Below, in pieces: positions 34,909 through 61,431 of a stretch of 64,000 nucleotides of DNA (positions within the stretch are counted from its first letter, which is position 1; each line of letters begins with the position of its first letter). The position numbers were made by a program, and so were the translations under genes. The DNA comes from Paenibacillus sp. OVF10 (GTDB lineage Bacteria > Bacillota > Bacilli > Paenibacillales > Paenibacillaceae): the NCBI GenBank assembly GCA_022836915.1, contig CP094668.1:5828001-5892000 (forward strand). Direction: 5' to 3'. The notes under the pieces were generated by a model. That model ran no database searches. It saw only the letters and a program-made list of their open reading frames with translations, and was not told where the DNA came from.

Positions 34909-34913
34909 ACATT

Positions 34914-35472: not shown

Positions 35473-35487
35473 ATTTCACCTCTCAAA

Positions 35488-36222: not shown

Positions 36223-36235
36223 CCAAGAACATAAC

Positions 36236-36406
36236 AAAAAACAGATCAATTATGGTGGTATCTGACCATAATCGACCTGTTCAATGTAACGGAATAGCGT
36301 TATTTAGGTTATAAAATCAAAGCATTTGATGTGCGTACCAACGGAATGTAGAAATCTTTATACAAGTATTACATTGGTTAAGTCTACTTGAAATCAGCCG
36401 CCCGAC
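36236..36406 (-). repeat. 190-base repeat, copy C, with class 1 hairpin
   Basis: Hairpin AACAGATCAATTATGGTGG / CCATAATCGACCTGTT (36239-36282) plus flanking bases (GCGTTATTTAGG, CTTTATACAAGTATTACAT) shared with copies at 27471 and 33898. It marks the end of the live VgrG-toxin-immunity cassette. Confidence 0.65.
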
Positions 36407-36796: not shown

Positions 36797-36822
36797 GCTA
36801 CAAACCTCTCAATCGTTTTTCA

Positions 36823-37269: not shown

Positions 37270-37271
37270 AT

Positions 37272-42739: not shown

Positions 42740-42801
42740 TGGAAATTATCCCTCCTGCCCATACGTCACCCTATACTAGTTGGCTTTCACTTCTGATCCA
42801 C

Positions 42802-43749
42802 TCATTTTTGCTTGTCCATCCAATTTGAATGTCCCTCCCCGCCTTCCAGCAACAATTGTGAATCCGCAGATAACGTAATTTTCTTTCCGGCTTTGAGCGA
42901 GATATTGCCCCCAGCAGACATCCGAATCTGCTGGCTTCCGATGATCTGAATGCCCTCGTCCCCGCTGAGACGAATGAACACCTCGCCCTCTTTGCTGCTA
43001 ATGGAGATGGAATCTGGGGTCAGTCTGATTTCTTTACCATAAGGCGTACGGAAAATTTTATGATCCGGTTTGTTCAATTGGTTCGTTCCAGTTACCTTGT
43101 TATCCAGACGGGGTGCTCCTGTCGCATAGGCTTCTTCTTCGTTTTGCGTAGGAAAATATACGGCCACCGGATCACCCACTTCAGGCATGACATACCAACC
43201 TGTCTGCCCCTCTGCGATGTATGGCGACTGATACAACAGCCACAACGCTTCCTCTTCCTCCTGTTTTTCATCACAGTCCAGCTGAACTCTTACATGACCA
43301 CCATGCACTGAAAGGATGCGACCAAGTAATGAGCTTCCGGCAATTATCGAATTGTAATATGTCTTTTGTCTTAGTCCTCTATGAAGGCTAAGTACATATT
43401 GGTGCTTCACTATTCCTCCCACAAGCTCGGTATATGCCTCAGTCACATATAGGCTTCTGCCTCGGAAGGTAATATGATGTCCAAGCTCCATCACCTGATC
43501 TGTCTCGATTTCGTATATAATGAAATCTGATTCGTTGACCTTTAACGTATCGTTTTCGGTAAAGTACATGAATGGTGCCATGTTTTTGCGGATTGTATAA
43601 CGTGTATTGTCCAGATCGATTGAGTTTCCGTGCTCAAAGACGCCAAAATAAAATTTGGGGCTGTCAAACTGAGCGGCCGGCATCAAGCTGGTGTGAAAAC
43701 GAGAAGCAAGTCTCCTGAGAAATGCCCAATCCGTTTCTTGATATTGCAC
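42802..43749 (-). CDS. C-terminal part of the structural VgrG
   Basis: Open 315-residue part of the gene above, from QYQETDWAFLRR through the OB fold to the C-terminal GGEGHSNWMDKQK. Needle repeats (IRLSGDEGIQIIGS, IRMSAGGNISLKAGKKITLS) are visible. Confidence 0.8.
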   Translation of the reverse strand: MQYQETDWAFLRRLASRFHTSLMPAAQFDSPKFYFGVFEHGNSIDLDNTRYTIRKNMAPFMYFTENDTLKVNESDFIIYEIETDQVMELGHHITFRGRSLYVTEAYTELVGGIVKHQYVLSLHRGLRQKTYYNSIIAGSSLLGRILSVHGGHVRVQLDCDEKQEEEEALWLLYQSPYIAEGQTGWYVMPEVGDPVAVYFPTQNEEEAYATGAPRLDNKVTGTNQLNKPDHKIFRTPYGKEIRLTPDSISISSKEGEVFIRLSGDEGIQIIGSQQIRMSAGGNISLKAGKKITLSADSQLLLEGGEGHSNWMDKQK

Positions 43750-44188
43750 GGCAACCTTCCCGATCTTGGCCCCCCTGTTCCCTCATCAATCACGTCCAGC
43801 CCCGGATAATCCTGATCCAGTTCCTTTAACAAATCGGGTAACTTCATTTTGACATTTTGAAATGTACGCGTTCGTTTTGTAATGTCCATCCGGTATGTAT
43901 GTGAAATGGCCTCCACGTGGAGCGTATATACGCCTCTGACAACCTGCACTTCAACAGATAGTGGAATGCCTTTGAACAGAGGCTTCTTATTGCCATCCTC
44001 ATCTTTTTGCCACACTTCAATTGGGGTATTTTGATCCGTAACATCGACATAGCGATCCTTCCATTCCTCAGACACCATGCCCTTAAACACGAGCCGAGTG
44101 TGCTCATTCATTTTTTCCGGATCGTCAGTTCTTGCAAATGCACCAGTTCATATGGTTCAATAATCAGATTCTCATAAGTCAGACTCAT
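42802..44188 (-). CDS. VgrG-like spike protein without toxin (whole gene, interrupted)
   Basis: About 462 residues. ATG at 44188 (site AAGGAGATGGGCAAC) starts MSLTYENLIIEPYELVHLQ, then one missing A near 44115 and one missing G near 43770 break the frame. Domain order: gp27-like N-terminal half (MNEHTRLVFKGMVSEEWKDR), QYQETDWAFLRRLASRF shared with the second VgrG, an OB region (GRILSVHGGHVRVQLD), YVMPEVGDPVAVYFPT and a beta-helix needle with repeats like SISISSKEGEVFIRL. It ends with the needle and carries no tip, so it is the structural spike. Confidence 0.82.
43683..44111 (-). CDS. N-terminal part of the structural VgrG
   Basis: Open 142-residue part starting at an internal Met after the first indel. 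It contains PLSVEVQVVRGVYTLHVEAISHTYRMD, equivalent to SLSVHLSGGVYRFELEALSN in the second VgrG. Residues after EGTGGP are out of frame. Confidence 0.7.
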   Translation of the reverse strand: MNEHTRLVFKGMVSEEWKDRYVDVTDQNTPIEVWQKDEDGNKKPLFKGIPLSVEVQVVRGVYTLHVEAISHTYRMDITKRTRTFQNVKMKLPDLLKELDQDYPGLDVIDEGTGGPRSGRLPCNIKKRIGHFSGDLLLVFTPA

Positions 44189-44209
44189 GTTGCCCATCTC
44201 CTTTCAACT

Positions 44210-44845
44210 TCAATGGATCGCAAGTGAATTTAGAATCGTCTCGCCAGGCTCCAGCCAATCGCGCTTTTCTTCATCCGTGCAATTAAATCCGTAAACAAGA
44301 ACTGACTGGTCTAAAATCGAAAAACCGATATGGTTATAAATCTGATTATTCAACCCCTGAACGGAAAACTGACAGTAGCCCGTGAACTGTCCCGTTTCAG
44401 TAATTCGAACGCCATGTTTCTCCCATTGTCTGATAGGCTGCGTTCCGCGAATGACATTGGCCATCGTTTCGGTAAAGGAAGTCAGCTCCTCTTCCGAAAT
44501 TCGATGCTCCAGTCTGTTAAACGTAAAATTGACTGTCCCTGAATCATTGGTATATATCCATTCCGGCCGATGAGACGAAGGATACTTCATGCTCGCTTCC
44601 TTCTCTGAAATTAAACGCAATGAACGTGGAAGGGATATGGCTACCCTACTATCGTACAACTCGGTTCGTTTTAGAAATACGCTTTCCTTTCCAATACGGA
44701 GCCTCGCTGGCAACTCTGTTGAATCAATAGCCTGGGATTTATGTGCTAATTTAACCACCTTTTCTATTTCACTGTTTTGATCATTCTCTTCATTTTCACG
44801 ATGGTTATATAATATGGGAATTACTTTGCGATCGAGATATTCCAT
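44210..44845 (-). CDS. DcrB/DUF1795-like protein next to VgrG
   Basis: 212 residues from the ATG at 44845, which has AAGGAAAGGAAG upstream; the open frame extends to a TTG at 44887. The later half (ISLPRSLRLISEKEASMKYP, VNFTFNRLEHRISEEELTSF, GYCQFSVQGLNNQIYNHIGF) resembles the PsbP/DcrB fold. In proteobacterial T6SS, DUF1795 (EagR) proteins chaperone effectors with VgrG or PAAR domains. Here it lies 21 bases before a VgrG gene, so a similar chaperone role is plausible but unproven. Confidence 0.55.
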   Translation of the reverse strand: MEYLDRKVIPILYNHRENEENDQNSEIEKVVKLAHKSQAIDSTELPARLRIGKESVFLKRTELYDSRVAISLPRSLRLISEKEASMKYPSSHRPEWIYTNDSGTVNFTFNRLEHRISEEELTSFTETMANVIRGTQPIRQWEKHGVRITETGQFTGYCQFSVQGLNNQIYNHIGFSILDQSVLVYGFNCTDEEKRDWLEPGETILNSLAIH

Positions 44846-44876
44846 ATGAAAAACAACTTCCTTTCCTTGTGCTGAA

Positions 44877-45650
44877 TCAATCCACAATCATTCGATGTGG
44901 TCCGCCCACCGGCATACCCGAACGTCCCGTTCCCCGGCCTGCATTCGCCAGTATACGATCCAGATATCGATGAATTTGCGCATTATCATATTCTCTGTAC
45001 TCCAGCCCCAATCGACTGGCAATGTGATGCAAGATGACGCTACGCCCAACCGTTCCTTCATTGAGACACATCATGGCGAAGACCAGATCCTGGGGATCAG
45101 AGGTCCCCGTTCGAAGCAACCTCTCGGCATAATCCTTCATGACAACCGGGGATAAGGTGCTTGTCCCCTCGGCTGCATAAGGGACATGAATGACATGCAG
45201 CGTGTTGAACTCCGTTGCCAAGTCGGCAAAGGTCTGGTAGTCACGCCGCAGCCGGGCCCCTTCCTTCAGCTTGAATCGAGCCAGCTCCAACTCACTCGAT
45301 GTGCACGTTGCCTCTTCATCCAGGAGCAGTTCCGAGTGGCTTATCGTCATGTCACTCACGGTCTCCTCCGCGGTAAACCGAAGCTTCAGCACATTGACCC
45401 GTCCCGTAGCTTGGTATGCCAGTTCCATAGGCTCTGTCAGCATATAAAGCCTTCCTTTATACAGCACCATCCCAGGAGCGACGACCAATTTGTCCGGGAA
45501 GACTTCTACCTCTGCACCTGCAAGAATGCCATCTGCATAACCGCGATAGTACAGTTCGATGAAGTCTCTGGGGAAATCACGTAGTCCCTCCAACATGGAT
45601 GTTTTCAGAATTCTTCCCTTGTTAAAATGCGGATACGAATATGTGAACAT
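44877..45650 (-). CDS. conserved injection-system protein, possible baseplate component
   Basis: 257 residues, not named. Beta-rich N-terminal half with EVEVFPDKLVVAPGMVLYKG and YMLTEPMELAYQATGR, reminiscent of baseplate or fibre attachment folds, then a helical part with LVFAMMCLNEGTVGRSVILHH and a Gly/Arg-rich tail NAGRGTGRSG. No signal peptide. It lies between the Hsp70-like ATPase and the DcrB-like gene, and the next gene starts within its last codons. Confidence 0.6.
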   Translation of the reverse strand: MFTYSYPHFNKGRILKTSMLEGLRDFPRDFIELYYRGYADGILAGAEVEVFPDKLVVAPGMVLYKGRLYMLTEPMELAYQATGRVNVLKLRFTAEETVSDMTISHSELLLDEEATCTSSELELARFKLKEGARLRRDYQTFADLATEFNTLHVIHVPYAAEGTSTLSPVVMKDYAERLLRTGTSDPQDLVFAMMCLNEGTVGRSVILHHIASRLGLEYREYDNAQIHRYLDRILANAGRGTGRSGMPVGGPHRMIVD

Positions 45651-45680
45651 GAGCGGTGTTCCCCTTTCTGCTCGTGGTCC

Positions 45681-48331
45681 TCACTTCATTCCGTCAAAGA
45701 AGTCCAGTTCCGACAAGTCTGTCTCAAACGGAAGCAGCTTCTGCGATCCCAGATACAGCCGTTCATTTCTGCGAGCTACAGGCAACACATGGAAGCCCCA
45801 ATGACGATCATCCGGAAAGACAAAAACTTCGTCTCTCCATTCACGATGGAATCCGTATCATCTTGCGGAATTTTATCTCCATATCGATCTCGAATGTCTT
45901 CGTAGAGTACCTCTTTATAGAAATCCGGGCGGTTCGCATATACGAATTTTTGTCTCAGCTGGCCATCGCTTCCGCTAAGGTACAACTCCACTTCTGCCGT
46001 CTCGAATGGCCGGGAAATGCTACCGGGAATACCATCACTCCGATCCAGACTGCTGATCAGCATTTTTTCCCGTCCATTATGCGTGTAGGCACTTACGGTA
46101 TACGGAATTACAGCGGCATCATGCGTGATGTCGGCTTGAACGCTTCCTGTTTTGCGGGCACTCAGATAACGAATCGCCCCTCGAAGGCAGGCAAGTTTAA
46201 GATCAGGCACACGCCCTTCCGCAGGTTTTTGCCGAAACTCAATGCTTCTGCCTGGAACGAACTCTTTCAATGCTTCCCGAAATACATCAATGCGACAGGA
46301 CTGACCTGTCAACTTAATAATCGAGTACTGGTTCATCCGCCCTTGCCGATAGAAATCATCCAAAAACTTGCGAACCACCTCATAGATATCGGCCTTAATC
46401 AGCTGGGTAATTTCCTTGATATTGAACACCACATCAGGGAACTCATATTCATCCTTCAACTCCCCATTCCGTTCTACCGAGAGGAACCAACGCTCCATGG
46501 TGGTGATCTGCAGATCACTGTCCCCGTCGCCCTCCATCTCCGAGTGGAATCGGTTACGCAAGATGCCGGTTTTGCGGAAAAATTGCTGCTTCATCTCTTC
46601 TGCGATTTCCCATAGAAAGTAGAAGTTGCCTCTTACCCGCAAATACTCGTCCCGTGAACGATTCTCTCGACGTGCAAACGCAGTAGGGATGATATGTTCT
46701 GCCTCCTCATAGCGTTGCTCCAGCTTTTGATAAACGGACTTCACACCCTCTTCGTCCACCTGACGGAACACATCCGCACCAGGTGCCTCGATTAGACTAT
46801 CAATATCCGTCACCTGACGGCGTCCGCTATAGTAGTCGGCGAATACAATTTTCATGAATTGCATAATACGATAGGTAATGTTGTGACCTCCGAAGTTCGT
46901 ATCCCCATTTTCGTAGGTAGTATGGATATCGAGCTTGTACGCCATATGTCCGTCCTCGATCGTAAAGGCACAGGAAGACAAATCGGTCGTTCCACCTCCA
47001 CAATCAATCACGAGCGCATGGTACGTCTGCCCTTCCATGAAAGCACCACGTTCCATGCCGTCAGCAAGGGTGTTATAGAGCACAGCCATTCCCTCATCCA
47101 GCGCATACGTCTGCTCAATCCGATAATCCGGAAGCATCTCTCCGAACATCTGCAAAAACTGTGTTTTCATCTTCACGGGACTGGTAAAATGCACATGCCG
47201 AAACTTGCACTTGAACTGATGCTCTGCCGTTCGGATGATGTAGTTCATGTACGCACGCAGCAGATCCATACGAGAAACCATGGCTGCATTGCCATGAACA
47301 TCGACAATTTCTTCCATTTTGTTGTAGTTGTTCACCCAGCGCTTCATACTGCGGAAAACACTCGCCCGGCTGCTGTACCCTCCCCGACGCATGCTTCGCA
47401 GCGCTTCATAGCCGAACTCGTAACGAATGTTCGCTGGATCCGAACACTCCGCCACACCGATTGCCGTAGGCAGGACCTCGATCCAGTCCGTATCTTTGTA
47501 TGTAGGGTCGGGAAAAGCAACATAGTTGATGGCATCCATACGGACTCGTCCATTCAGCAAATCCTGGCTACTTGGCGCCTGAATATAACCGTTATGCAAA
47601 TAGGCGCCTGCCGTCGTATTGGAGGTGCCAAAATCAATTGCAAGCACTGCTTCTGTCGGTTCAAGCTCCCGGATGTCCAGATCTGCCAGTGGGATTTGAG
47701 TATATTGAATATGAACCGGTGGAAGCGGTCTGCTGGAATGATAGGTTTCATATAGATACTCGGAGTCGCGTTTACGGAAAAAGAGAAGACTGTATTGTCT
47801 GTTTCCCGATCTCTTCCAGGTTGATCCACTTCCTGCCGTCAAATAAAAGGTTCCCGATACGGAGTCGTCCTTAACCAGGTTGAAGATGCCACACAGCTCC
47901 ATGCTCTCATTGACTAAAAGTACGTTGGATTCGGTTAATCCACCCGGTGCCGTGACCACATATCGATCCAGCTTGTCCACGTTCAATCCTTCGTACAGAA
48001 TCAGTCGCGCAGGCACACTAATGCCTCCATCACTGCTCATGGGAGCCGTCATATGACGAGAGATAGCCTTTTGGATGCGCTCGAATCCACCTTCAACAGA
48101 CTGATCGATCCACAATACATCGTCCGCTCCCAGAAATTTTAAAATAATCCGAATCAGTTCTTCCCGCTCCGTCCGAGGGCCCAATCCCTCAATTAACCGT
48201 TCCTTGTAGCAAATGTTCCGTAATTGGAATGTGGTCATGTCCATCAATTCTTCGCGCGTATAACGCATGGTTCCTCTGGAACGTTCCCTGCTCGTGGCGT
48301 CAGGATACAATCGGTATGAATAGCCGTTCAT
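45681..48331 (-). CDS. Hsp70-like actin-fold ATPase of the injection-system operon
   Basis: About 883 residues. A 225-residue N-terminal extension, unlike DnaK, precedes the nucleotide-binding domain: phosphate-1 VLAIDFGTSNTTAG (near 230), phosphate-2 VIDCGGGTTDLSS (near 430), an adenosine-region IKLTGQSCRIDVFREAL. There is no canonical DnaK substrate-binding domain; the C-terminus is beta-rich and ends ELDFFDGMK after one T-run repair near 45810. With the J-domain gene in the same operon it could provide the chaperone or remodelling ATPase, a role ClpV has in T6SS. AAGGAGGAAGTATAG precedes the ATG. Function is inference. Confidence 0.82.
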
Positions 48332-48363
48332 CTATACTTCCTCCTTACAACTGCTGATGCTGC

Positions 48364-49053
48364 TTAATATAGGGCAATCCCGTCCTGTATCATCGTATAG
48401 TCCACATCCAGAATGCCAAAATGATGCCCCCAGTATATTTCCGTGTCGAAACGTACCGGCAGAAAGAGCTCAAGAATCAGTTCCAGCTTCTCCTTCGCTT
48501 CTGTACGTTCTACCTGACCAATATACAAAAGCAATTCATCCTTCTCCTCACAATTGGCATAAAGGGTTGAACGCGGGAACATTCGAACAAGGGTATCCCT
48601 CAGTAGATGAACGGCCTCTCCCGTATCATACAAACGGAGCATATTGCAGGCGATCACTTCCTGCTCCTCCTGCCCGAACAGCTCCAGTCGCCGCCGAACC
48701 CGATCCCCGTATACACCCGAATGCATATCCTTCAGAATGAAGCGAATATAATACTCCCTCTTGTTCATACCCTGCATCAAATCCATATCCGCCAGAAAAT
48801 GAATAACCAGATCAAAGAGTGCTTCCCGCAACTCCACCTGCTCTTCATTATTGATATCGAACAGGTCCCGGAAAATATCAAAAAAGCGATAATACGGATT
48901 GACTTCAACCGTACCTTCCACGCCTGAAGCATTCAGGTTTGTCTGGCTAAGTTCCATATAAGGCGAATATACACGTGCTGGCACAAAGGTTACGTCGCGC
49001 AGATCGGTTCCATCACGTTTAGCTCGAATAATCAGATCCCAGATGTAATTCAT
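48364..49053 (-). CDS. conserved injection-system protein of unknown role (229 aa)
   Basis: Soluble, mixed alpha/beta. Start MNYIWDLIIRAKRDGTDLRD, middle NPYYRFFDIFRDLFDIN, end EIYWGHHFGILDVDYTMIQD. The last block looks like a phage baseplate edge motif but I cannot name a family. Located between the larger unknown protein and the Hsp70-like gene, in the same direction with an eight-base gap. Confidence 0.65.
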   Translation of the reverse strand: MNYIWDLIIRAKRDGTDLRDVTFVPARVYSPYMELSQTNLNASGVEGTVEVNPYYRFFDIFRDLFDINNEEQVELREALFDLVIHFLADMDLMQGMNKREYYIRFILKDMHSGVYGDRVRRRLELFGQEEQEVIACNMLRLYDTGEAVHLLRDTLVRMFPRSTLYANCEEKDELLLYIGQVERTEAKEKLELILELFLPVRFDTEIYWGHHFGILDVDYTMIQDGIALY

Positions 49054-49060
49054 GCTGTAC

Positions 49061-50355
49061 TCACACCCATTCCCCTTCGCAGCAGTATTCCGGGAAAGCC
49101 AGCTGGATTTCGGATACCAGAAAGCTCAGCAGATCATCCAGAAAAATAGCCTGTAACGGCTGCTTCCCGTGTCTGCTGAACCTTAAAATCATTCGATGTT
49201 TATCTGCCTCAACACGGACATGGTCGCTTACAAATGTATTAAGTGGGTACGTAATGCCCAAAGCGGGTCCTGGCGCCACCACTTGTACATCTTCCAGTTC
49301 CAATCCCTCTGCTGCCTGAAAAGCGTGAACCATGCGGGCAATCTCCCTTTGGACCGCACAGAACGTCCTTCCTGACGCGCATATTTACCGGCAAACCCTT
49401 CCCGTTTGTTATTGGAAAACAGTGGATAGTCCATTCTGCCAATTCGAGTTGCGACAGGACCGGCTATTTTCAGCACCGTCCATGAATCGGATTTTTCCAG
49501 CGGTGATACGATGGTGATATCTTCTTCCGATCTTTTGATATACCGAATATGCGATTCGTCTCCATCCACCAGATATCCGTGTTCCGTTCCGGTTTTGCGG
49601 AGTGGCAACACATGTTCATAATTGATTCGGTCCGAAGCCGGAACAGGGAATCCACCCGTTTTCATATCAATCTTCTGGATGTTCCACAGCGGAATCATAT
49701 TGGTTCTTTTATAAGACTCGAACTCCTCCAGATGGATGGAAAGTTCCTTGACAGTATGTTGTTTGTCCCATGCCTCTCCGTCATCCGAACCCACTAGAAC
49801 ACAATCAACGAATTTGAAAATATAAGGTGCATTAATCGATTTCCATGGCAGGCTGTTCTTACGAAAGACCCGGTACAATTCTTCAACTTTGGAGATATAC
49901 GCAGTACTTGATTTCAACCGAACCGTTATGGCATGTCTGCCTTCATTGGTTACAATCTCCCCGCGAAATGTCCGATTACTGTTCAGCAGAGATTGGAGTT
50001 CCTGTTGCCCACATTCCATGTAGAATGTGAACAATTTCATGTCTTCCTGACGCGCCAGTGCCTCTGAGGCCTCGCTCAAATAGACGGTCTGTGGTTCAGC
50101 ATCCTCAGGAATGATCGGGTACAGAAATTCATGAATGGGGTCCAGATCTTCCCGCGCGCATAATGTGACATATACATCATGACGTTCCTCCTGCGGCAAC
50201 ACCTCATCAAAAACTCGTTGCTCAATCTGTTTGTTCAGCGTCTCCTGATACTCCACAAGATTAAGAAAAACGCCTGTCATGAGATCTTTGAGCATGCGGC
50301 GTTGTTCCAGATCCTCCATCTTGTTAAGACGGTCACGAATCATGTCTTTCATCAT
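49061..50355 (-). CDS. conserved injection-system protein of unknown role (about 430 aa, interrupted)
   Basis: ATG at 50355 (GGAGGAGGAGATTC) overlaps the preceding stop by four bases, ATGA. The N-terminus is helical (MMKDMIRDRLNKMEDLEQRR), the middle contains AYISKVEELYRVFRKNSLPW, and after a C-run shift near 49340 it ends VVAPGPALGITYPLNTF and FLVSEIQLAFPEYC. No known domain. Tight coupling to the pseudophosphatase suggests a structural or baseplate role. Confidence 0.65.
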
Positions 50356-52195
50356 GAATCTCCTCCTCCCGATGATTCCTGTTCGTTCACGTCAGCCTCC
50401 GTAGTGTCGGTGCTTCCGTCAGCCTTGGAGGCAGAATTACTGCTAGCATTACTTGTCGTTTTTCCAGAAGAAGCACCTGAGCCAGAAGCATCCGCATTGC
50501 CATTTCCAGCCGAGGTGACATCACCAGTGGAAGAACCGTTCCCCACTGTATTGCCTGCGCCCATACTTCCGGTACTGCCGGTCATATCCGAGGTCATTCC
50601 CGATGTATTTGCTGTATCTAATCCTGCCGTATCCTGCGTAAGATCAGCCGCCGGTACAGGTGGGTTCAATTTCTCATCCAGCTTGTTTATTTTCCGCTCC
50701 ATGGCCAGCACGCGTTCCAACATATCGATCTCCTGATAAATTTCTTGTGCCGAAGCATAAGCATCCCTGGCTCCACTATAGTCTCCAGCTTCATTGAAGC
50801 GGTCACCCTTCTGTTCCAGCGTATCTGCTTGAAGCTGCCGGGATTGCCGTTTGATATCTGCACGTTTGGTCTCGGCCGTCTCCAGTTGCGTAGCAATTTC
50901 CTTCAGCGCATCCTTGTAAGCTGTCTCCGTCGCGGCTGTTCTGGCCCTTTTATACAAAATGATCGCTCCGCTGTAATCTCCATTCTGGAGTTTCAGATCG
51001 CCCTCGGTGATCCAGTCTTGCACTTGCTGGAAGGTGGTCATCTGCTCCAGACGCTCCTGAATAACTTCCCGGTTGAACATGCTATAGGATTCAGACAACT
51101 CCAATGCTTTGGTGTAACTCGCGGTTGCTTTGGTAATGTCGCCTTCTTTCAGGTGAGCTTCCCCATCAACCAGCGTCTGGGCAGCAGCCATCTTCGCAGT
51201 CAACAGCTTTTTATGTATCGGGTCCTTGATTTTGATGGAATTATTGCGCGCCAGGCTGTAGTCCGAGACTGCCTTGGCATACTCTTGTTCCTTGACGTAC
51301 TGGTCTGCGGTCTGTTCATATTGCAGCATATCTACGGCCAATTCAGCTTTTTTGGCTGCACTTTTCACCGCGTAGAATATGCCGGCTCCACCAAAAATCA
51401 GGAGCATAACCAGCATGATGGCAATCCGCTTAATCCATTTCTTACGGTTCTTGGGCTCTTCATGAAAAATCTTGTTCACATATATGGCTGCCGCACTATA
51501 ATTCTCGATACGGGTACGCTGCTTGCTAAGCATTACTTCTTCAAGCGTATCCGCCAGTGTCTGCGGGTCATTGGCACCTTCAACCGCATCGATCATCTCG
51601 GCATCCTGAACCCCTTCCCATAATCCAGGGGTACAGAGCACAAGCACATCGCCATCGGCCAGCTTGATCTTATCCGATACATACGGTCTGATCATGCCAG
51701 GTTTGCCCGCGTATTCATTCAGATTGCCGCGTTCATCATGTTGATCCACACGATCCTCTGCAATCTGGCCTTCGGCTGCCAACTGGGCAGCAACGCTATG
51801 ATCCTTGCTTTTTAGTGCAAGCCGATTTCCACGAAAATGATACAACCGGCTGTGTCCGGCAGATGCCCACACCATACGTGTATAATCTGTCACTACAATG
51901 ACGAATCCCACTTTGAGCCTGACTCGGCGGCTTTCATACTGCAACCATTCATGGGCAATCTTGATATATTCTGTCAGTCTGCGTTTGGACATGGTTGGCT
52001 TTTCCAAAAGGATTCCAGAATCGTCTGTACTGTGATCTGTGCACTATTCACTTCCGTGTCTGTATCCAGGCCATCTGCAATGACATAACAGGCCCAATCT
52101 TCCAGCTCAACGCAGCCGTAGAAATCCCGATTCTTCAGGAAAGATCCTGCTTCCGAGACAAAAGCCGTCTTGAATTCACTGTTCTCCTTCCTCAT
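50352..52195 (-). CDS. membrane-bound PP2C-like pseudophosphatase with repeat domain
   Basis: About 614 residues after a T-run repair near 52010. An N-terminal PP2C fold (DWACYVIADGLDTDTEVNSA, AGHSRLYHFRGNRLAL) lacks key metal ligands: the usual DGxGG after the first Asp is DGLDTDTE and the CSDG motif reads CTPGLWEGV. A membrane segment (IAIMLVMLLIFGGAGIFYAV, near 265) follows, then TPR-like helical repeats (LQNGDYSGAIILYKRART, FNEAGDYSGARDAYASAQE) and a Ser/Gly/Thr-rich tail. Likely a phosphosignal-binding membrane scaffold rather than an enzyme. It follows the active PP2C gene, overlapping within about 40 bases. Confidence 0.75.
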
Positions 52196-52300
52196 CCGTC
52201 TCCCCATTTCCCTTCCCTGTGCGTTGCCTGATCCGCTACCATCCTTGCTCCAAAATGATAATCGTGGCATTATCCTGATGCACGAGCTGTTTTTCTTCAA
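51974..52300 (-). CDS. N-terminal open part of the pseudophosphatase
   Basis: Contains the real N-terminus (MRKENSEFKTAFVSEAG, start near 52195) and the first strands of the PP2C-like fold. The frame ends at an indel after ESFWKSQ near 52010. Residues before the ATG overlap the end of the active PP2C gene. Confidence 0.6.
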   Translation of the reverse strand: MKKNSSCIRIMPRLSFWSKDGSGSGNAQGREMGRRMRKENSEFKTAFVSEAGSFLKNRDFYGCVELEDWACYVIADGLDTDTEVNSAQITVQTILESFWKSQPCPNAD

Positions 52301-53117
52301 TCAAATCAATGATGGTCTGGGCTGCATCAAATGGCGCCATGTCTTTCGCCAGTATAGTCTCCAGTTCCATTTCAGTAAGGGAGTTGTACACCCCGTCACT
52401 GCATAACACAATCTTGTCCGCCGGTTGCAGTGCAAACGGCTCGTCCGCGATTTCCATTTGTTTAAAATGGTCGTACCCCAAATAGTTGACCAGCCTTTTG
52501 CGCTGCGGATTATCCAACGCCTCCTGCTCCGATATTTCTCCAGACATATACTGTTCTTCGAGTTGAGTTTCCAGCGTATGTTTATGATTGATAGCAAGTA
52601 GCTCACCTTTGCGAAACACGGCCAAAATGCTGTCCCCTACTGCGCCCCAATACAGCTCCCTGCCCTTGATCATGGCAGATACCAACGTCGTTCCTCCAGG
52701 AACGCCAAGTAAATTGCGAAGAATCGCCTGGTTTGCCGCATGGGCAGAAGCATCCCAAAACTCTCCCGGATCAGGAAACCGCTCCAACTCTTCAAACTCA
52801 CGGATAAATGTTTCTACAGCAGTTGTACTGGCTACTTTCCCACCAGATAAGCCGCTAATTCCATCGGCAAGTACCGCGAGTACACCATATGGCTCCACGG
52901 CACAGGCAAAATAATCATCCTGCTCACTGCGAGCACCGATGGTCTGTCCATTCCCAATCTGAACACCCACTGGCCTATCGTCACGTTGCCTTACCGGAAT
53001 CCGGCTTCGGACGAATAACAACAACCAGATCGACAAACAGCCTGCTGCCAGAACCCAATAAGGCGTTAGCTCCTTGTCGTTCCACAAGATCATGAAGGTA
53101 TTCACTGTTGCTCCCAT
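52236..53117 (-). CDS. PP2C-family protein phosphatase
   Basis: 293 residues. An N-terminal membrane segment (YWVLAAGCLSIWLLLFV, near 20-38) anchors a cytosolic PP2C domain with every metal-binding motif: ARSEQDDYF, VLADGISGLSGG, GDSILAVF, CSDGVYNSLTE and QDNATIII. It should dephosphorylate Ser/Thr residues, opposite the kinase at 60443-61431, and its likely targets include the FHA partners or the VWA protein. ATG at 53117 overlaps the FHA gene stop by 16 bases. Confidence 0.9.
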   Translation of the reverse strand: MGATVNTFMILWNDKELTPYWVLAAGCLSIWLLLFVRSRIPVRQRDDRPVGVQIGNGQTIGARSEQDDYFACAVEPYGVLAVLADGISGLSGGKVASTTAVETFIREFEELERFPDPGEFWDASAHAANQAILRNLLGVPGGTTLVSAMIKGRELYWGAVGDSILAVFRKGELLAINHKHTLETQLEEQYMSGEISEQEALDNPQRKRLVNYLGYDHFKQMEIADEPFALQPADKIVLCSDGVYNSLTEMELETILAKDMAPFDAAQTIIDLIEEKQLVHQDNATIIILEQGW

Positions 53118-53634
53118 TCAAAATGCACACCACATAATGGGATGAAAATGAATTTGCTGCGTCCCAATTGAATGACGTCATATGCAGCCAGTTCCACCGG
53201 AGAATAGACCGCTTCATTGTTGTGATAAGCAAGGCCGGAAGCATCGCCGGGCAGCAGATAGAAATTCCGTTTTTTGGATCATATACAATCACTGCATGAT
53301 TACGCCTTGAAATCGTGTTATCCCCGAGGATTCGAACATGCATCTCTTCCGAACGTCCAATAAAGTTCTTTTCAGCCATAATTCGATAATCCTGGCCCAT
53401 CTGCGGACCTTCGATACACACCATCCATCCCGTTACCGGTTCAATTCCTGTTGTTTCCCCCAGGTATGGCATCGTTCTGTCATCCTCTGCTGTGCGAGGC
53501 GCGCGTGGGATTGCTCCCGCTGCTTCACTATTGCCGGAAGCCGGTGACTCGACGGCCAGATTGCAATATGGACACGTGTTTCCGTGCCGTCTCGTGCTGA
53601 ACATATGTCCGTTTCCACATCTTGTCAGACTCAT
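53102..53634 (-). CDS. zinc-ribbon FHA protein
   Basis: 177 residues. An N-terminal CxxC pair (RCGNGH and CPYCN) suggests a zinc ribbon. The C-terminal FHA domain has NFIGRSEEMHVRILGD, ISRRNHAVIVYDPK and a repaired end NFYLLPGDASGLAYHNN, IQLGRSKFIF. Open frame to 52981 is an artefact of a missing A near 53270. FHA domains read phosphothreonine, so this is a sensor of the kinase. In T6SS an FHA protein (Fha1) switches on assembly. Confidence 0.82.
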
Positions 53635-53677: not shown

Positions 53678-54200
53678 TTATTTCACCAAAATTCGGGTAT
53701 TGGCAATATAAATTAAGTCCCCTGCCTCAATCAGGCTGGGTTCTTCGATTTCCAATTTGGATGATCTGCTTTGATTTCCCTTACGTACACCTACGCCGCT
53801 AGCCGAGTCAATATCCTCGATAAACCATTGGCCCGAGGCTTTGTTCAGCACAGCATGTTGCGGACTGATGAGGGAAGCATATGGAGTATCGGACAGATCA
53901 ATGTCCGCCTCACTGTTCTTCGAACTTTTTCCGATCAATACACTCGTCTCACCCTGAATGTACCATTCCTTCACACTTGTACCGTCGTCGTCCAACAGCA
54001 CGAGTTTCACAACACGTGAAGACAGCTTCTTCTTTTCCCCCTTGGTGGCAGGTATGTATTTAAAAATAGGTATGCTCCCCGGAGAGGACTACAATAATTC
54101 CAGTTATCCACTGGGCACCCATGTCCCGGTTAATGATGAATATGTAATACAGCACGGCTAACGAAATCATGGCGACGCATGCATCAAGCCCTATAGTCAT
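53678..54200 (-). CDS. membrane-anchored FHA protein
   Basis: About 174 residues. From the ATG at 54200 (GAGGAAGGTCGGTA) two hydrophobic stretches (VAMISLAVLYYIFII, WITGIIVVLSG) lead, after a missing G near 54085, into a polar linker and an FHA domain: TSVLIGKSSKNSEADIDLSD, ISPQHAVLNKASGQWFIED, DSASGVGVRKG. Phosphothreonine reader at the membrane. The open frame starting at 54010 lacks the membrane part. Confidence 0.78.
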
Positions 54201-54217
54201 TACCGACCTTCCTCGTC

Positions 54218-54729
54218 TCACTTCCATAACCTCCGCCTGAACCGGCACGATCCATTACAGGTCACCGGCTTACTTTTTCGAACTCCGAAATATCGGTCAA
54301 ACATGGCGGACATATCCATTCCTTTATTGGGATCGGCTTTGCCACTGTTTGAGCTTTCCTTGCCTTTGGGGCTATAGCCAAAAAATTGTTCAAACTGTTC
54401 CTGCATTCGTGATGGATCAGACCATACCTTCTCGGTATTCATAGGTCCATTTTTTGTATGTCCACTCTTTTCTCGTGCAGTATTGGATGTTGTTCCTTTT
54501 GCCCCTTCTGGATTCCCCGTAGATCGAGGTTGTTGATTGTATGTTGCCCTTAGCTCGGGGTTTCCGAGTGTGCTGTAGGCCTCATGTACTTGCTTGAAAC
54601 GCGCCTCTGCCTGCAGATCTCCCCGTTAACATCCGGGTGAAATTTCTTCGCCAATTGACGATAAGCCTTCTTGATCTGCTCCGGAGAAGCTTCACGTTCT
54701 ACACCAAGCACGGCATAATAATCTTTCAT
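54218..54729 (-). CDS. J-domain (DnaJ-like) co-chaperone
   Basis: ATG at 54729 begins [20 protein letters not shown], then [16 protein letters not shown] with the HPD motif needed to stimulate Hsp70 ATPase, and [17 protein letters not shown] ends the J domain. A missing base near 54625 breaks the frame. The rest is a Ser/Gly/Lys-rich linker and a C-terminal MFDRYFGV helix. About 170 residues, with no DnaJ zinc or C-terminal domains. It likely serves the Hsp70-like protein in the same operon. Confidence 0.8.
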
Positions 54730-54855: not shown

Positions 54856-55281
54856 TTATACCGGGAAGCCGCCTTCGATTTTAGTGAATTCAGTTTTGTC
54901 TTTTTTCTGTTTGATGAACAGGCTGAATTCACCCACGCCTTCGGTATCTCCGAAACGCTCTGTGTAATCCACAACGAACGCGTTAGGCATGTAAATTTTG
55001 CGTACCACTTGATCCGCTGCAACCACTTCCAGGGTTACTTTACGATAGCAATCTGCTTTTTCAGCTGGAACGAGGGACCACAGAGCAAGTTTCATCGTGT
55101 CATCTGCATTGTCACCGTCTGTTGCTGTAATAATTTTGCCACTGATGCGAAGTGTTGCACCTACATCTGTGGATCTAGCGTTGGAATCATCCGGTGTATC
55201 TGTGTCATACACTACTGTGCGGATATTATCCATTCCCAATTCGATTGTTTCTGCGCCTTCTACTTTCAATACAAAACCCAT
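54856..55281 (-). CDS. tube (Hcp/TssD-like) protein
   Basis: 141 residues, size and beta content of a tail-tube subunit: VLKVEGAETIELGMDNIRT, ISGKIITATDGDNADDTMKL, VTLEVVAADQVVRKIYMPN and a strong end YTERFGDTEGVGEFSLFIKQ. AGGAGG lies ahead of the ATG (GGAGGTTTTTATTA). It is directly downstream of the sheath-like gene, the classical sheath-tube order. Confidence 0.68.
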   Translation of the reverse strand: MGFVLKVEGAETIELGMDNIRTVVYDTDTPDDSNARSTDVGATLRISGKIITATDGDNADDTMKLALWSLVPAEKADCYRKVTLEVVAADQVVRKIYMPNAFVVDYTERFGDTEGVGEFSLFIKQKKDKTEFTKIEGGFPV

Positions 55282-55465: not shown

Positions 55466-57634
55466 TTACACTTTCATCGCGCTGGTGCCTTTGGTAATCA
55501 TGACCTCCAGGTTCTTCACATTGCCGTTGAATACCAGATCAATGTGGCACATATTGCTCTTCTCATCGATGATAAAGCTCATGTCGTCACCTTCCTGAAT
55601 GATCGAATTGATCGACCCTCGGGTTCCCAGCCACCGGCTCTTCTGACTGCTCGGATTGTTGCTGAAGAATTTGACGATATTTTCATGCTTGAAATCACCC
55701 GTCTGGAAACGGAGCAAGCGCTCAATGTAAGTACTTACGAGTGTTTTATACAAGGAATCAAAGCCATCTTCGGACATCGCCATGCTTCTCGCTTTGTATA
55801 CCGTGATCCGCTTGATATCGCTATCCTGGATTTGGGCATTTTCCGATGAGAAAATAAATCCAAAGTTTTTGCGGTTAATCGAATCCTTGATGGTGTTCGT
55901 GAATCCGGAGATTTCTTTGGTCATCGTAGTCACGACACGCAGACTGTTATCGCCTGCTTCAATATCAAAACGCACACCTGGATAATCCCGGTTCACGGTT
56001 TTGAATGCGCCTCGTAGATACTCGGGGCACTGATATGCAGCCACAATTCCGGCAGATACATAAGACGCACCGACATACACACCTTCAATCCACAGCTTCA
56101 AAATGTCTTCTTTCTCCTTGGAAAGTTCCACACCATTCTCTGTCTGAAGCATACGACTGTCGATAACGACACCGGACTTCTCTTTCGGAATAATGGTGAA
56201 ATTCGGAGCACTTGGAATGGCGAATTCGCTGTAGTCCTTGCGAGTTAATACCGAGCATTTATCAATATATTTATCGATGCCCGCAGTAGCCATGCTACTG
56301 AATGTAGTCTCTTCTCCGGATTCAAAGCTGAAGAATACTTGTACTTTGTAGTCTTTAACGACTTGTAGGAGCATGGACAGGGATTCCATACTGTTTCCGT
56401 CTTGTTTAACCACTTTCTCGTTACCACGGAAACGGGCACGACTGACTTGAACTTGTCCCGTATTCTCCAGTTCAACGGAAGGAACAATACCGAACCAAAT
56501 GGTGTCGGTAAAATCATTCTTCGCATTGACTGTGTTGAGATAGGTCTCCAGCCGCGGAATGTTACTGCTCTTAACAAGCATATCCAGCTTGGCATTGGCA
56601 ATCAGCATGGAAGGCAGCATGCCTTTGTTTTTGGTCGCATATTGATCAAAGAACATTTTGACACCCAAAATTTTCTCTACCAGCGGTTTTACGGTTTTCA
56701 CAAAGTCATCCTTGGCGTTCTTGTAAAATTCCAGGTATGTATTGTAATTCTGTACTTCAACTGCCGTATCAACATCCGTCTGAACCGCAGGAAGTGGGCA
56801 GAATGTACGAACGACCAGATCCTGTACATACGGTGAAGGTGCCTCGGAGAGTGAATCATAATCTTCGGCAAACACCTGAGTCAAATCTGTGCTTGTCGAC
56901 TCATCCAGGAGCATCAACTCGTTGTTATCACTCTTTGGAGCTTCAATAATTTTCAATTCTCCGCTCTCACCAATCGTGAGTTGTCCTACCTGAATCGCTT
57001 CGGAAGAAGTTTCTTCTTGAGCACGGCCCAGCAACAAGCGGGTTTTGATATCTTCGATGGCCAGTGGCAGCATTGCCATAACATTGTTATAGTTCCGGCT
57101 GGCATCTTCAAACATGACATTAAGTTTATCCCCGATATCCAACTTCTTCGGGTCCCCGTCATCAAGCTTCTCATGCTGGCCATACATGTAATGAATTTCT
57201 TTCCGTACCTGCCGAATGTCATCCATAACCTTTTTCGGTGAAATCATATCCAGCAAATTTTCAAACTTGAAATCTACATTCGTAATCCCCTGACTACGTT
57301 TGGTATCGATCAGGGTAAAGAGCATTCTCAGGAAGTCATTGCTATGATCAATTTTGATCTCAGAGATTGCTTCATCCGGAATCCCTTCCGGTTTTTTAAG
57401 CGTATACATGACTTTCTGGTTTACCGCATTGAAAAAGGAATACACACTGGGAGAAAACTTGTCCAAAAACTCATCGAAGTTGCGTACAAGCAAGTGTTCG
57501 TTGATCTCCTTGATCTTGTCATCATTCAAACTGTCGATCCCTTTTACGTCACCGACAATCGTAATCAAATCCATTTTCTCAGGATTGATCTCTTCAAAAA
57601 GCATCGTTCGGTTCGTTTGATTAATAATATCCAT
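55466..57634 (-). CDS. large sheath-like protein of contractile injection system
   Basis: 722 residues, intact. N-terminal helical part (VRNFDEFLDKFSPSVYSFFNA), middle DKLNVMFEDASRNYNNVMAML, second half with TTMTKEISGFTNTIKDSIN, RLLRFQTGDFKHENIVKFFS and the C-terminal block MCHIDLVFNGNVKNLEVMITKG. The end resembles the handshake strand region of TssC sheath proteins, and size and gene order fit a fused TssB-TssC. I am not certain: similarity is by pattern only. AGGGGGATGTTGC is ahead of the ATG. Confidence 0.55.
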   Translation of the reverse strand: MDIINQTNRTMLFEEINPEKMDLITIVGDVKGIDSLNDDKIKEINEHLLVRNFDEFLDKFSPSVYSFFNAVNQKVMYTLKKPEGIPDEAISEIKIDHSNDFLRMLFTLIDTKRSQGITNVDFKFENLLDMISPKKVMDDIRQVRKEIHYMYGQHEKLDDGDPKKLDIGDKLNVMFEDASRNYNNVMAMLPLAIEDIKTRLLLGRAQEETSSEAIQVGQLTIGESGELKIIEAPKSDNNELMLLDESTSTDLTQVFAEDYDSLSEAPSPYVQDLVVRTFCPLPAVQTDVDTAVEVQNYNTYLEFYKNAKDDFVKTVKPLVEKILGVKMFFDQYATKNKGMLPSMLIANAKLDMLVKSSNIPRLETYLNTVNAKNDFTDTIWFGIVPSVELENTGQVQVSRARFRGNEKVVKQDGNSMESLSMLLQVVKDYKVQVFFSFESGEETTFSSMATAGIDKYIDKCSVLTRKDYSEFAIPSAPNFTIIPKEKSGVVIDSRMLQTENGVELSKEKEDILKLWIEGVYVGASYVSAGIVAAYQCPEYLRGAFKTVNRDYPGVRFDIEAGDNSLRVVTTMTKEISGFTNTIKDSINRKNFGFIFSSENAQIQDSDIKRITVYKARSMAMSEDGFDSLYKTLVSTYIERLLRFQTGDFKHENIVKFFSNNPSSQKSRWLGTRGSINSIIQEGDDMSFIIDEKSNMCHIDLVFNGNVKNLEVMITKGTSAMKV

Positions 57635-58207: not shown

Positions 58208-60277
58208 ATGATATTAATAAAATTAAAAAAAACAATTTTCTCTCTCTTGTTCATCAGCTTTTTAATTCCAGCATGGGACATGGGAAGCATATACGCTGAA
58301 TCATCCGTCAAGACCCAGACGTATGAAGGACTCGATGCCATGTTTGTCCTGGATGTTAGCTACTCCATGAATGAGACCGACAAAGATCGCATCGCCGAAG
58401 AAGTTATACATATGTTTATGGATATGACTAGTGGACCTAAGACCCGATTGGGGTTTGTAGCTTATAATGACAAGATCACTTCATCCGTACCACTGATGGA
58501 TATTTCATCCTCTGGAGCTCGCAATAATCTTCGTAGCCGTGTGGATGGCTTAAAACGTTCAGGATATACAGATCTCGGACTTGGCTTACGCCGAGGTGCT
58601 AGCCTGCTTGAACAATCACAGACGGACAAACGTAAACCATTTATGATTTTGCTCTCTGACGGAGAAACGGATTTACGAGGATCGACGAGCAGAACACCTG
58701 CCGACTCATCCAAGGATGTGGACAAGGTTATTGAGATGGCACAACAAGCTGGTTATCCCATCTATACTGTGGGACTAAACCGCGACGGTACGGTTAACCC
58801 CGCAGAATTGGAGCGCATCGCCAAAGAAACGGGTGGTTCTTCCTTCATTACCGGAAGTGCGGACGATCTGCCTGAAATCTTCAATCGTATTTTTGCAGAT
58901 CAGATTCAATCTGTTCTTGTGTCTGTAGCGGCTGTGACTGCAACTGGAGCAATGCAGGAAGTAACCGTGGATATTCCTAACTCCAGCATGGCGGATGCCA
59001 ACATTATCATGCTCTCTGATCATGCTGTCTCGGAAGCTCAGCTCTATTATCAGTCGAGCAATGTCAGCTTCATTCGATCTGATAAATATGCTCTGATGAA
59101 GATCATTCGTCCGGTCAAAGGACAGTTTAAACTGAAGTTTAAAGGTCGTAGTGGTGATCTGGTGAAGATTAATCTACTGGGAAATTACAACGTAGCTGCT
59201 ACTGCAAATATGGCAACGGAGCAGCCAGTCAAGGGGAAAAGCATCACATTTGAGGCATCACTCTACGATCAGGCTGTGGACCCTAAACCCATTCAGGACT
59301 TGGATGTGTACAAGGGACTGGAAGCGGAACTCATTGTAACTCCATCTGATGGAAAGACAGAACGTATCCCTTTGACCAATACAGGTAGCGGATTTACGGG
59401 AAAATACACTTTTCCCAAGTCGGATCTGTACACATGGGGACTACGGATCGACGGTCCAGACTTTTATCGCGAAATTACTCCGGTTGAAGTAGACATTACG
59501 AATCAAGCACCCGTATCCACCGGCGAATCCATGGTGTTATCCAAAGATGACAGCAATACAGATGTCGACCTGAACAACTACTTTAAGGATGCCAATAATG
59601 ATCCTTTAACGTATGTCCTTGCTGAAGGTGGAAATGAACGCAAGCTCGGGGAGGCCGTCATTGAAGGTAACCTGTTGCGATGGTCTTCTCTTCACACTGG
59701 AAGTTCCACCATTAAGGTGACAGCAACGGATTCTGAGGGAGCAAGTATAACTACAGACATTACGTTGCAAATTCAGTCTTTACGTGAAAAGGTACTTCTC
59801 TATACAGGATTGGGCCTGCTTCTTACTGGTGGTATTTTCGCACTGTATTGGTTCGTATTGAAACCAAAACCCGTATTCCGCGGAAGACTGGAAGGATACT
59901 TTCTAGCTACAGCGAACGGCGAGGATATACCAGTGACCAATTGGCCTCTAACCTCATTGGAACGTCGAAAAGTAAGTCTCAGTGAACTTTTTGATCGCAT
60001 GGACATTGGGGTCAAAGTACCTGAAGCGGGACGAATCTGGCTGGAAGCGGGTAAGAAAGAAACGTTATTGGTACGGCACGATACGAATTGTACGGTTGTC
60101 CGAGGCCGAACGCCAGTGAAGCGTAGATACACGGAAGCTATGGAGTACAATGAAAAGTTGTATATTACGTTTGAGGATGGTGTTACGGAGATCGAAATTC
60201 GTTACAAAGCCATCAAACCAAGTACCAATATCTATGTAGGACAAAGAGAGACCCCCAGTAAACTACGTGTTAACTAA
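58208..60277 (+). CDS. secreted or membrane-anchored VWA-domain protein
   Basis: 689 residues. A signal-like N-terminus (IFSLLFISFLIPAW) precedes a von Willebrand A domain with intact MIDAS: DVSYSMNETD (DxSxS) and LSDGETD. A beta-rich middle is followed by a cadherin-like domain (NNYFKDANNDPLTYVL, ATDSEGASITTDI), a C-terminal membrane segment (LLYTGLGLLLTGGIFALYWF, near 535) and a cytosolic beta domain rich in Lys. Bridging outside and cytosol, it could relay a surface signal to the kinase or FHA proteins. The start is divergent to the sheath gene. No indels seen. Confidence 0.82.
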   Translation: MILIKLKKTIFSLLFISFLIPAWDMGSIYAESSVKTQTYEGLDAMFVLDVSYSMNETDKDRIAEEVIHMFMDMTSGPKTRLGFVAYNDKITSSVPLMDISSSGARNNLRSRVDGLKRSGYTDLGLGLRRGASLLEQSQTDKRKPFMILLSDGETDLRGSTSRTPADSSKDVDKVIEMAQQAGYPIYTVGLNRDGTVNPAELERIAKETGGSSFITGSADDLPEIFNRIFADQIQSVLVSVAAVTATGAMQEVTVDIPNSSMADANIIMLSDHAVSEAQLYYQSSNVSFIRSDKYALMKIIRPVKGQFKLKFKGRSGDLVKINLLGNYNVAATANMATEQPVKGKSITFEASLYDQAVDPKPIQDLDVYKGLEAELIVTPSDGKTERIPLTNTGSGFTGKYTFPKSDLYTWGLRIDGPDFYREITPVEVDITNQAPVSTGESMVLSKDDSNTDVDLNNYFKDANNDPLTYVLAEGGNERKLGEAVIEGNLLRWSSLHTGSSTIKVTATDSEGASITTDITLQIQSLREKVLLYTGLGLLLTGGIFALYWFVLKPKPVFRGRLEGYFLATANGEDIPVTNWPLTSLERRKVSLSELFDRMDIGVKVPEAGRIWLEAGKKETLLVRHDTNCTVVRGRTPVKRRYTEAMEYNEKLYITFEDGVTEIEIRYKAIKPSTNIYVGQRETPSKLRVN

Positions 60278-60442: not shown

Positions 60443-61431
60443 TTACGCCGTCTCATGTTGCTTTTTCGACTCCACTTCATAGACCTGCGTATGTTCATTC
60501 TCGGCCAAAGACCATTCCACTGTACCTGGTTTGCGCACTTTCCATACCCAGGCTTGAACTCGCAGCGAGCTTCTGACCCATGCTAAAGAGGCACAGCGTT
60601 TCTCAGACCGAACCGTCAACCCCCAATGAATAACACGAGCAAGCCAAGGATTCACATACTCATTATGTGAGCGAACAGATGGCAATTCATCCTGGAACAA
60701 CCGCTGTTTCACGTCCATAGGGGTTGCCCGCATGTCCAATAATGGAGCAGAGCTGCCAAACTATAGATGTCCGACATCGGTCCCTGACTGGATTTCTCCG
60801 AATAAAACTCCAGCGGAGAATAACCTGCCGATGTAAATATCACCTGTTTCTCTCCGGATTGCATTGGCCAACGGGTAGCTGAGCCAAAGTCCAGAAGTTT
60901 GGGTGTACCATCCTCCATAACCATAATGTTGGAAGGTTTCACATCCCGGTGAAGAATGCCTTGCTTATGTATGTAATCCAATGTATCCACCAGTGGAAGC
61001 AGCGTCTCCGTTATGAAGGCAGCATCAAGAGCATGATTATGTTCATTCAAATACTCGGTCAATGTGATTCCCGTGCAGTATTCCATCACCAGATACCCCG
61101 TATCATTCGCTTCAAAATGATCCAAATACGAAACAATATGAGGATGATCCAGTTTTGATAACAATTCACCTTCGAGCAGAAATGCAGCCAGTAACTCCTG
61201 ATATTGCCCACCGTATCCTCGCGAAGAGCAGAACACCCCTCGCTTGTCTGCCTGACGTTCAGCCAGTCTCTGTGGGAAAAATTCCTTAATGGCTACCTTG
61301 GCACCTGTGTTACGATCTCGCCCTGCATATACAATAGCCAACTCACTGCTGGCTAATACCTGTCTTATTTGATATGTATCATTTATAATTACATTGCGTT
61401 GCAATGCCATTTTGCAATTGTCTTTTCTCAT
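60443..61431 (-). CDS. eukaryotic-like Ser/Thr protein kinase (interrupted)
   Basis: About 329 residues after repair of a C run near 60735 (GQPPMDVKQRLFQ). Kinase core: VAIKEFFP (lysine), LSKLDHPHIVSYLDHFE, HRDVKPSN (catalytic), LLDFGSA, SAGYSPLEFYS (activation segment and APE equivalent), MSDIYSLAALLHYW. No obvious membrane segment. The start MRKDNCKMALQRN at 61431 follows AAGAGGT. With PP2C and FHA genes in the neighbouring operon it should be the threonine kinase of an injection-system signalling loop, like PpkA in T6SS. Confidence 0.85.

Follow-up and report, generated by a model that had tools for sequence, protein, structure and literature searches.

The window analysed here is a stretch of 64000 nucleotides from the genome of Paenibacillus sp. 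OVF10 (Bacillota, class Bacilli; 7.24 Mb in one contig, CP094668.1, completeness 89.4), covering positions 5828001 to 5892000 of the contig. On its reverse strand, at 50352-52195 and within a gene cluster resembling a type VI secretion system (T6SS), lies a gene whose product combines a PP2C fold, a single membrane helix and a TPR-like helical region. The protein is predicted to be a catalytically dead phosphatase of the PPM family and is called pseudo-PP2C below. Its gene, described in an earlier note made from the letters of the window, is present, but in this assembly it forms two overlapping open reading frames (ORFs) in different frames (51974-52300 and 50352-52007) and not one ORF. Against locus L005, residues 1-63 of the relatives map to 52195-52007 and residues 63-614 to 52010-50355. 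The closest named relatives, from P. amylolyticus and Paenibacillus sp. LS1, are 97% identical, and the gene is a single open frame of 588-614 residues from a conserved start in all 12 loci fetched by protein similarity; one internal stop was found in three of 37 match rows from genomes of the class. Relative to L005, the window shows frame breaks in seven of 13 cluster genes (the kinase, both FHA proteins, pseudo-PP2C, the 431- and 883-residue proteins and VgrG; the other six are intact), and an assembly error is therefore likelier than a dead gene for the window copy. The broken frame would also suit a decayed gene or an assembly artefact as an account of the protein itself; for the family this is refuted by the 12 open frames, by its presence in 35 genomes of the class and by the breaks in the other cluster genes.

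Motif positions were matched to tPphA via an active relative of type B (described below), using 49 distinct sequences from 53 loci. The replacements of CSDG by CTPG and of DGxGG by DGLDTDTE reported in the earlier note are real, and GH for GD and EN for DN occur besides; the DGxGG site has become DG-L-D-x-D. Of the four tPphA residues that we take to be the metal-binding Asp (D34, D119, D193 and D231), three are gone in the window's own protein. Of the 49 sequences, 25 retain the DG Asp and five the DN Asp, and no sequence has the GD or the SDG Asp; none of the four is left in 23 sequences, one in 22 and two in four. Loss of the metal site is thus more than chance, with the GD and SDG Asp gone in 49/49. 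The DG Asp, D41, is replaced by Arg, His, Lys, Gln, Ser or Glu in 24/49. At the motif-1 Arg position, presumably that of the phosphate-binding Arg of tPphA, no pseudo-PP2C carries Arg (0/49; Arg one or two positions off in 13), and all 46 of the adjoining PP2Cs carry the residue, as do the two type-B relatives. G17, N22, D24, G42, E155, N158, D183 and G191 are invariant in 53/53 loci, and new acids are conserved at the former DGxGG site (D44 in 48/49, D46 in 45/49); D24 is kept in 49/49. Such conservation in a protein devoid of a metal site suggests that selection maintains a role besides catalysis. The fixed noncatalytic residues and the lost site together speak against a phosphate-reading pocket, and the suggestion that the domain binds rather than removes phosphates is left unsupported by a protein family with these losses.

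A profile built from 11 family members matched PppA of the Pseudomonas aeruginosa T6SS (PDB entry 6jkv, E = 1.1e-8), Stp1 (4.2e-8) and further bacterial PP2Cs in a search of the PDB, and matched designed TPR proteins over the repeat part. When a model of residues 1-246 was compared with solved folds, it matched Stp1 (Z = 18.0, r.m.s. deviation 3.4 over 216 residues), PppA (Z = 17.2) and TAB1 (PDB entry 2j4o, Z = 14.6), so that the structure prediction with metal-site comparison proposed in the earlier note yielded a PP2C fold; a non-PP2C fold was not seen. A model of residues 1-509 computed from the family alone gave a predicted local distance difference test score (pLDDT) of mostly 80-94 by block in the TPR part and mostly below 60 in the PP2C domain. 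Mean consensus is 0.70 for the dead domain and 0.58 for the TPR part. The family-wide loss of catalytic ligands from a PP2C fold, found by sequence and in the model, supports the prediction of a PPM pseudophosphatase. The membrane segment and TPR-like repeats of the earlier description were likewise borne out, a hydrophobic helix being present near residue 258 in 53/53 loci and the repeats appearing by profile and model. Lys and Arg are more numerous on the N-terminal side of the helix than on the C-terminal side in 51 of 53 loci; the PP2C domain is therefore predicted to be cytosolic and the TPR part to lie outside. A Ser/Gly tail had also been described: the share of Ser, Gly, Thr, Asn, Ala and Pro in the last 90 residues is 0.72-0.80 in 16 Paenibacillus loci (L004-L013 and L048-L053), and it ranges from 0.21 to 0.81 over the 53 loci, so the tail is not a general feature.

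Linkage was followed through 398 genomes of the class with cut-offs of E ≤ 1e-30 for pseudo-PP2C and E ≤ 1e-20 for the 722-residue sheath candidate of the cluster. Both proteins were found in the identical 35/398 genomes, from eight of 145 genera. Forty-six loci were compared, 34 from the class set and 12 fetched by protein similarity (four of the 12 have an identical protein in both sets). The gene order from the sheath candidate to VgrG is constant in 46/46, with VgrG unmatched in L014 and L057 and L059 cut before the tube gene. Pseudo-PP2C directly adjoins the PP2C here termed PP2C-A in all 46 loci, where the two matches lie no more than 194 bases apart, and in six of seven genomes outside the class. 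The gene is thus in fixed linkage with an active-type PP2C, two FHA proteins, the injection genes and, in most loci, a kinase. Table 1 lists the features of the window.

Table 1. Features of the cluster and of the pseudo-PP2C gene in window coordinates
Feature	Coordinates	Strand	Basis
Pseudo-PP2C / membrane helix / TPR-like protein	50352..52195	-	614 residues in L005; frame broken in this assembly
PP2C-fold domain, residues 1-246	51459..52195	-	Sequence profile and domain model
DGLDTDTE replacing DGxGG, residues 41-48	52052..52075	-	Motif comparison
CTPG replacing CSDG, residues 188-191	51624..51635	-	Motif comparison
Membrane helix, residues 258-276, predicted N-in/C-out	51369..51425	-	Most hydrophobic 19-mer; flanking Lys/Arg counts
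TPR-like helical region, residues 281-510, predicted extracytoplasmic	50667..51356	-	Structure model, profile
Ser/Gly/Thr-rich tail, varies among relatives	50355..50666	-	ORF and composition
Active-type PP2C (PP2C-A), N-terminal hydrophobic segment by eye	52236..53117	-	Motifs
Zinc-ribbon FHA protein, frame broken here	53105..53634	-	Domain match
FHA protein, N-terminal hydrophobic segments by eye, frame broken here	53678..54248	-	Domain match
DnaJ-domain protein, approximate coordinates	54270..54660	-	35% match to that of L014
Hcp-like tube candidate	54856..55281	-	Homologue matches to TssD
722-residue sheath candidate	55466..57634	-	Size and gene order only; no sequence search confirms
VWA protein; Ig-like match below cut-off; hydrophobic segment by eye	58208..60277	+	Domain match
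Ser/Thr protein kinase, frame broken here	60446..61431	-	Domain match
431-residue core protein, frame broken here	49061..50355	-	Conservation among loci
229-residue core protein	48364..49053	-	Conservation among loci
883-residue core protein, weak Hsp70-like segment, frame broken here	45684..48331	-	Conservation among loci
257-residue core protein	44877..45650	-	Conservation among loci
VgrG-like spike, frame broken here	42779..44188	-	Domain match in L005

PP2C-A, the kinase and the zinc-ribbon FHA protein, which accompany pseudo-PP2C, appear to be intact by their residues. PP2C-A, taken for an active phosphatase in the earlier note as well, has all four metal Asp in 45/46 loci (the exception, L057, lies on a very long branch). 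The kinase has its Lys in 35/36 loci (one gap) and HRD and DFG in 36/36, and the zinc-ribbon FHA protein has Arg in 46/46, Ser in 45/46 and His in 46/46, which we take to be its phosphothreonine-binding residues. Because the kinase and zinc-ribbon FHA residues are intact, a live phosphorylation switch probably surrounds the dead phosphatase.

The VgrG-like protein of L005 matches Phage_base_V (the T6SS/phage OB domain) at 26 bits, over the cut-off, and Phage_GPD at E = 1.5e-6, just under it. A DUF4280 protein lies nearby (40671-41105, E = 3.7e-32), a family grouped with PAAR domains in a review. For the 141-residue tube candidate, eight of 12 homologues match TssD at E ≤ 0.5 (best 1.6e-5) and Hcp1 matches at E = 0.04, all weakly; the window's own copy has no Pfam match. 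The 722-residue protein has no sheath match by Pfam, PHROGs or the sequences of solved structures, and the genome has no VipB match. TssM (PF06761) and TssL (PF09850) have no match at E ≤ 1 anywhere in the genome and hence none at the locus.

In a draw of 398 genomes from the phylum the 722-residue protein was found in 13, nine of them outside the class. The zinc-ribbon FHA protein and pseudo-PP2C are both present in seven of these nine and both absent in two. In these two, which have sheath candidates of 25-26% identity, only short PP2C frames of 238-244 residues were found (E = 4e-8 and 5e-7). These divergent machines retain the tube candidate, VgrG, the 431- and 229-residue proteins and a match resembling the 883-residue protein; the 257-residue protein was matched in L134. 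No kinase, FHA or PP2C match was obtained in the fetched stretches of L133 and L134. As a side observation, these two divergent machines from outside the class have VgrG and Hcp-like proteins, and L133 also has DUF4280/AHH-type proteins and, by eye, extra Hsp70-like genes. In genomes G466 and G758 the run of DnaJ, FHA, FHA, PP2C, pseudo-PP2C and kinase genes stands behind the 257-residue gene and not before the 431-residue gene, with the kinase directly behind pseudo-PP2C in both. The run of G466 was traced by a whole-genome search and a further stretch; it is unbroken and on the same contig as L130, beyond the 20 kb of that locus. For G758 the match of L131 first assigned to pseudo-PP2C was rejected as a cross-match to PP2C, the real gene lying ∼7 kb further on, past two lipoprotein-like and three other large frames. 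This insertion (L154, 3480-10232), with its repeated lipoprotein-like and large frames, possibly holds effector/immunity genes. In L127 the sheath candidate comes after the 883- and 257-residue genes and the kinase, and the signalling run lies behind the tube gene. The relocation of the block, and the absence of pseudo-PP2C together with the zinc-ribbon FHA protein in two machines, place pseudo-PP2C in the DnaJ/FHA/FHA/PP2C signalling block; it is obligatory only where that block occurs.

For the ancestry of pseudo-PP2C two further loci were compared, L082 and L083, in which kinase genes occur with a zinc-ribbon FHA protein and a pair of PP2Cs whose metal motifs are complete by eye; no injection gene was matched in either. 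The two PP2Cs are adjacent in L083 and separated by one gene in L082, which also has a VWA-like protein by eye. A tree built from 47 domains unites the pseudo-PP2Cs in a single group, on a common branch with the second (type-B) PP2C of L082 and L083 (support 100/99); PP2C-A groups with the first PP2C of these loci (98/98), and the PrpC phosphatases form a third group. The type-B PP2Cs, active by their motifs, are the closest relatives found (33 and 30% identical), and when that of L082 was compared with 200 genomes of the class its best matches besides itself were the dead domains of injection clusters. A tandem duplication from the neighbouring PP2C-A is disfavoured by the tree, with caution for long branches. 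Our reading of the tree is that a kinase/FHA/two-phosphatase set was joined to injection genes, and that one of the phosphatases may then have ceased to be catalytic and acquired its membrane helix and TPR part.

Pseudo-PP2C shares a PP2C fold with lost metal ligands with TAB1 and PHLPP2, in which we know of no membrane helix plus TPR. TAB1 and PHLPP2 are eukaryotic PPM pseudophosphatases that have lost metal ligands (PMC12002173). The present protein is a variant of this kind, bacterial, membrane-anchored and tied to an injection cluster; in a literature search neither this cluster nor a bacterial secretion-linked PP2C pseudophosphatase was described among the matches listed. A likeness in way of working is offered by the pseudokinase EssB/YukC. 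In YukC, the hub of the type VII complex, a dead kinase domain precedes a membrane helix and a helical part on the outside, and this domain copurifies with the FHA domains of YukB in a contact that is apparently independent of phosphorylation (PMC9600267); TraF of Gram-positive type IV secretion resembles EssB/YukC (PMC13037476). The arrangement predicted here, a cytosolic dead signalling-enzyme domain, a single helix and an outside helical part in a Gram-positive secretion machine, is the same, whereas the dead enzyme is a phosphatase of PP2C fold instead of a pseudokinase, the machine is a different one and an active-type kinase and PP2C stand alongside. Whereas the YukB FHA domains have no phospho-binding residues (PMC9600267), the zinc-ribbon FHA protein keeps Arg, Ser and His and the membrane FHA protein has Lys for Arg. 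Kinase, PP2C and FHA genes also make up the PppA/PpkA/Fha pathway of the T6SS, PppA being among the closest solved folds, but here there is a second, dead and membrane-anchored PP2C in a genome with no TssL/TssM match. In the T6SS, kinase and FHA proteins control assembly, in Agrobacterium via phosphorylated TssL (PMC3953482, PMC10482370). The PppA domain of TagF-PppA of Agrobacterium tumefaciens represses T6SS secretion with TssL phosphorylation unchanged (PMC5995506), and is thus a precedent for a PP2C domain acting in this way; unlike pseudo-PP2C it is fused to TagF, and in the available part of that source it is not described as metal-site dead. The type-B PP2Cs of L082 and L083 resemble pseudo-PP2C in tree branch and differ in their full metal motifs.

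It is proposed, with a probability of roughly one half, that this dead, membrane-anchored PP2C is the docking hub of a Ser/Thr-phosphorylation switch that serves the T6SS-like injection cluster of Bacillota. The dead domain would lie in the cytosol, with the TPR part facing outside, and would bind the FHA proteins, the kinase or PP2C-A by protein contacts instead of phosphate and metals. By gathering these partners at the membrane, the hub may couple them to the apparatus and gate or place its assembly, in the manner of EssB/YukC with its dead, FHA-binding domain in type VII secretion. The family would give a testable handle on the membrane anchor and firing control of a monoderm injection cluster, and it parallels the pseudokinase hubs found in secretion of types VII and IV.

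Several points weigh against the docking hub. The kinase was matched in 36/46 loci and the VWA protein in 33/46, some loci being cut before the kinase; in G758 PP2C and pseudo-PP2C are ∼7 kb apart; and the membrane FHA protein has Lys in 46/46 where the zinc-ribbon FHA protein has the canonical Arg. The contact of YukC with FHA domains is apparently independent of phosphorylation, and the parallel therefore does not prove a phospho-gate. The tree contains 16 pseudo-PP2C rows, from 16/46 loci; it does not unite the two type-B rows (59/36), and the branches that join are long, so that the exact join needs care. The PP2C domain was poor in the family-alone model, which still matches Stp1 at E = 9.5e-4, and the domain was therefore refolded with the active neighbour as extra rows; the alignment behind the resulting model of residues 1-246 thus included an active PP2C, and confidence in the model is moderate (mean pLDDT 63.8, predicted template-modelling score 0.68). 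The predicted topology comes from charge counts, to which two of 53 loci do not fit.

The earlier note had suggested that the protein could be a membrane platform in place of TssL and TssM; a bare structural platform of this kind is less likely than a hub for regulation or docking. As a platform it would anchor the baseplate to the membrane. The genome without a TssM (PF06761) or TssL (PF09850) match, the helix in 53/53 loci, the linkage and the presence of pseudo-PP2C in every one of the 35 class genomes that carry the sheath candidate agree with this, and pseudo-enzymes can serve as hubs of membrane complexes, as seen in EssB/YukC and TraF (PMC9600267, PMC13037476). Two machines nevertheless do without pseudo-PP2C, although, with sheath candidates so divergent, they may use another anchor; the signalling block can sit elsewhere, as in G466 and G758, pseudo-PP2C groups with signalling phosphatases, and three other cluster proteins have hydrophobic segments (by eye). 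The platform is therefore possible and unproven, and we consider it unlikely. That the dead phosphatase unites both roles, as main membrane anchor and phospho-gated docking point of Gram-positive T6SS-like machines replacing TssL/TssM, is a tentative and rather doubtful extension; in that case Gram-positive secretion machines would repeatedly have drawn their membrane hubs from pseudo-signalling enzymes, a dead kinase for types VII and IV and a dead phosphatase in the present cluster.

The near-constant adjacency to PP2C-A (46/46 loci and six of seven genomes outside the class), and the fact that each protein groups with its own counterpart among the paired PP2Cs of other signalling clusters, would also be expected of a regulatory subunit that, as the partner of PP2C-A, determines what this enzyme acts on or how active it is; with ∼7 kb between the genes in G758 and a gene between the two PP2Cs of L082, this is quite unlikely. 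A phosphate reader, in which the former active site binds phosphopeptides and does not cleave them, could draw on D24 (49/49), on D41 (25/49) and on the displaced Arg of 13/49 sequences. It is improbable in view of the GD and SDG Asp lost in 49/49, all four metal Asp lost in 23/49, the motif-1 Arg absent in 49/49 and D41 replaced in 24/49. Residual or altered catalysis with another metal would find possible ligands in the new acids D44 (48/49) and D46 (45/49), and PHLPP2 retained one zinc (PMC12002173); with neither the SDG nor the GD Asp in any of the 49 sequences, and PHLPP2 itself having no detectable activity according to the same source, it is very improbable. The docking hub is retained as the better proposal.

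Some further observations were made on the injection genes. The weak Hsp70-like segment of the 883-residue protein (45684-48331) and the DnaJ-domain protein (54270-54660) could act in recycling of the sheath, the part played by ClpV in the T6SS. The region at 24000-38000, beside the VgrG and DUF4280 genes, has a low G+C content (0.32-0.43) and small ORFs and looks like an effector/immunity region. Within one species group the genes from the 431- to the 257-residue protein (window 42779-50355) occur in two versions, ∼43-55% identical, one in L004, L009-L011 and L013 and the other in L005, L006 and L008. In these loci identity remains at 85-100% for the sheath candidate, the tube, the two FHA proteins, PP2C and pseudo-PP2C, and the switch between versions falls inside the 431-residue gene, after ∼50 shared residues.

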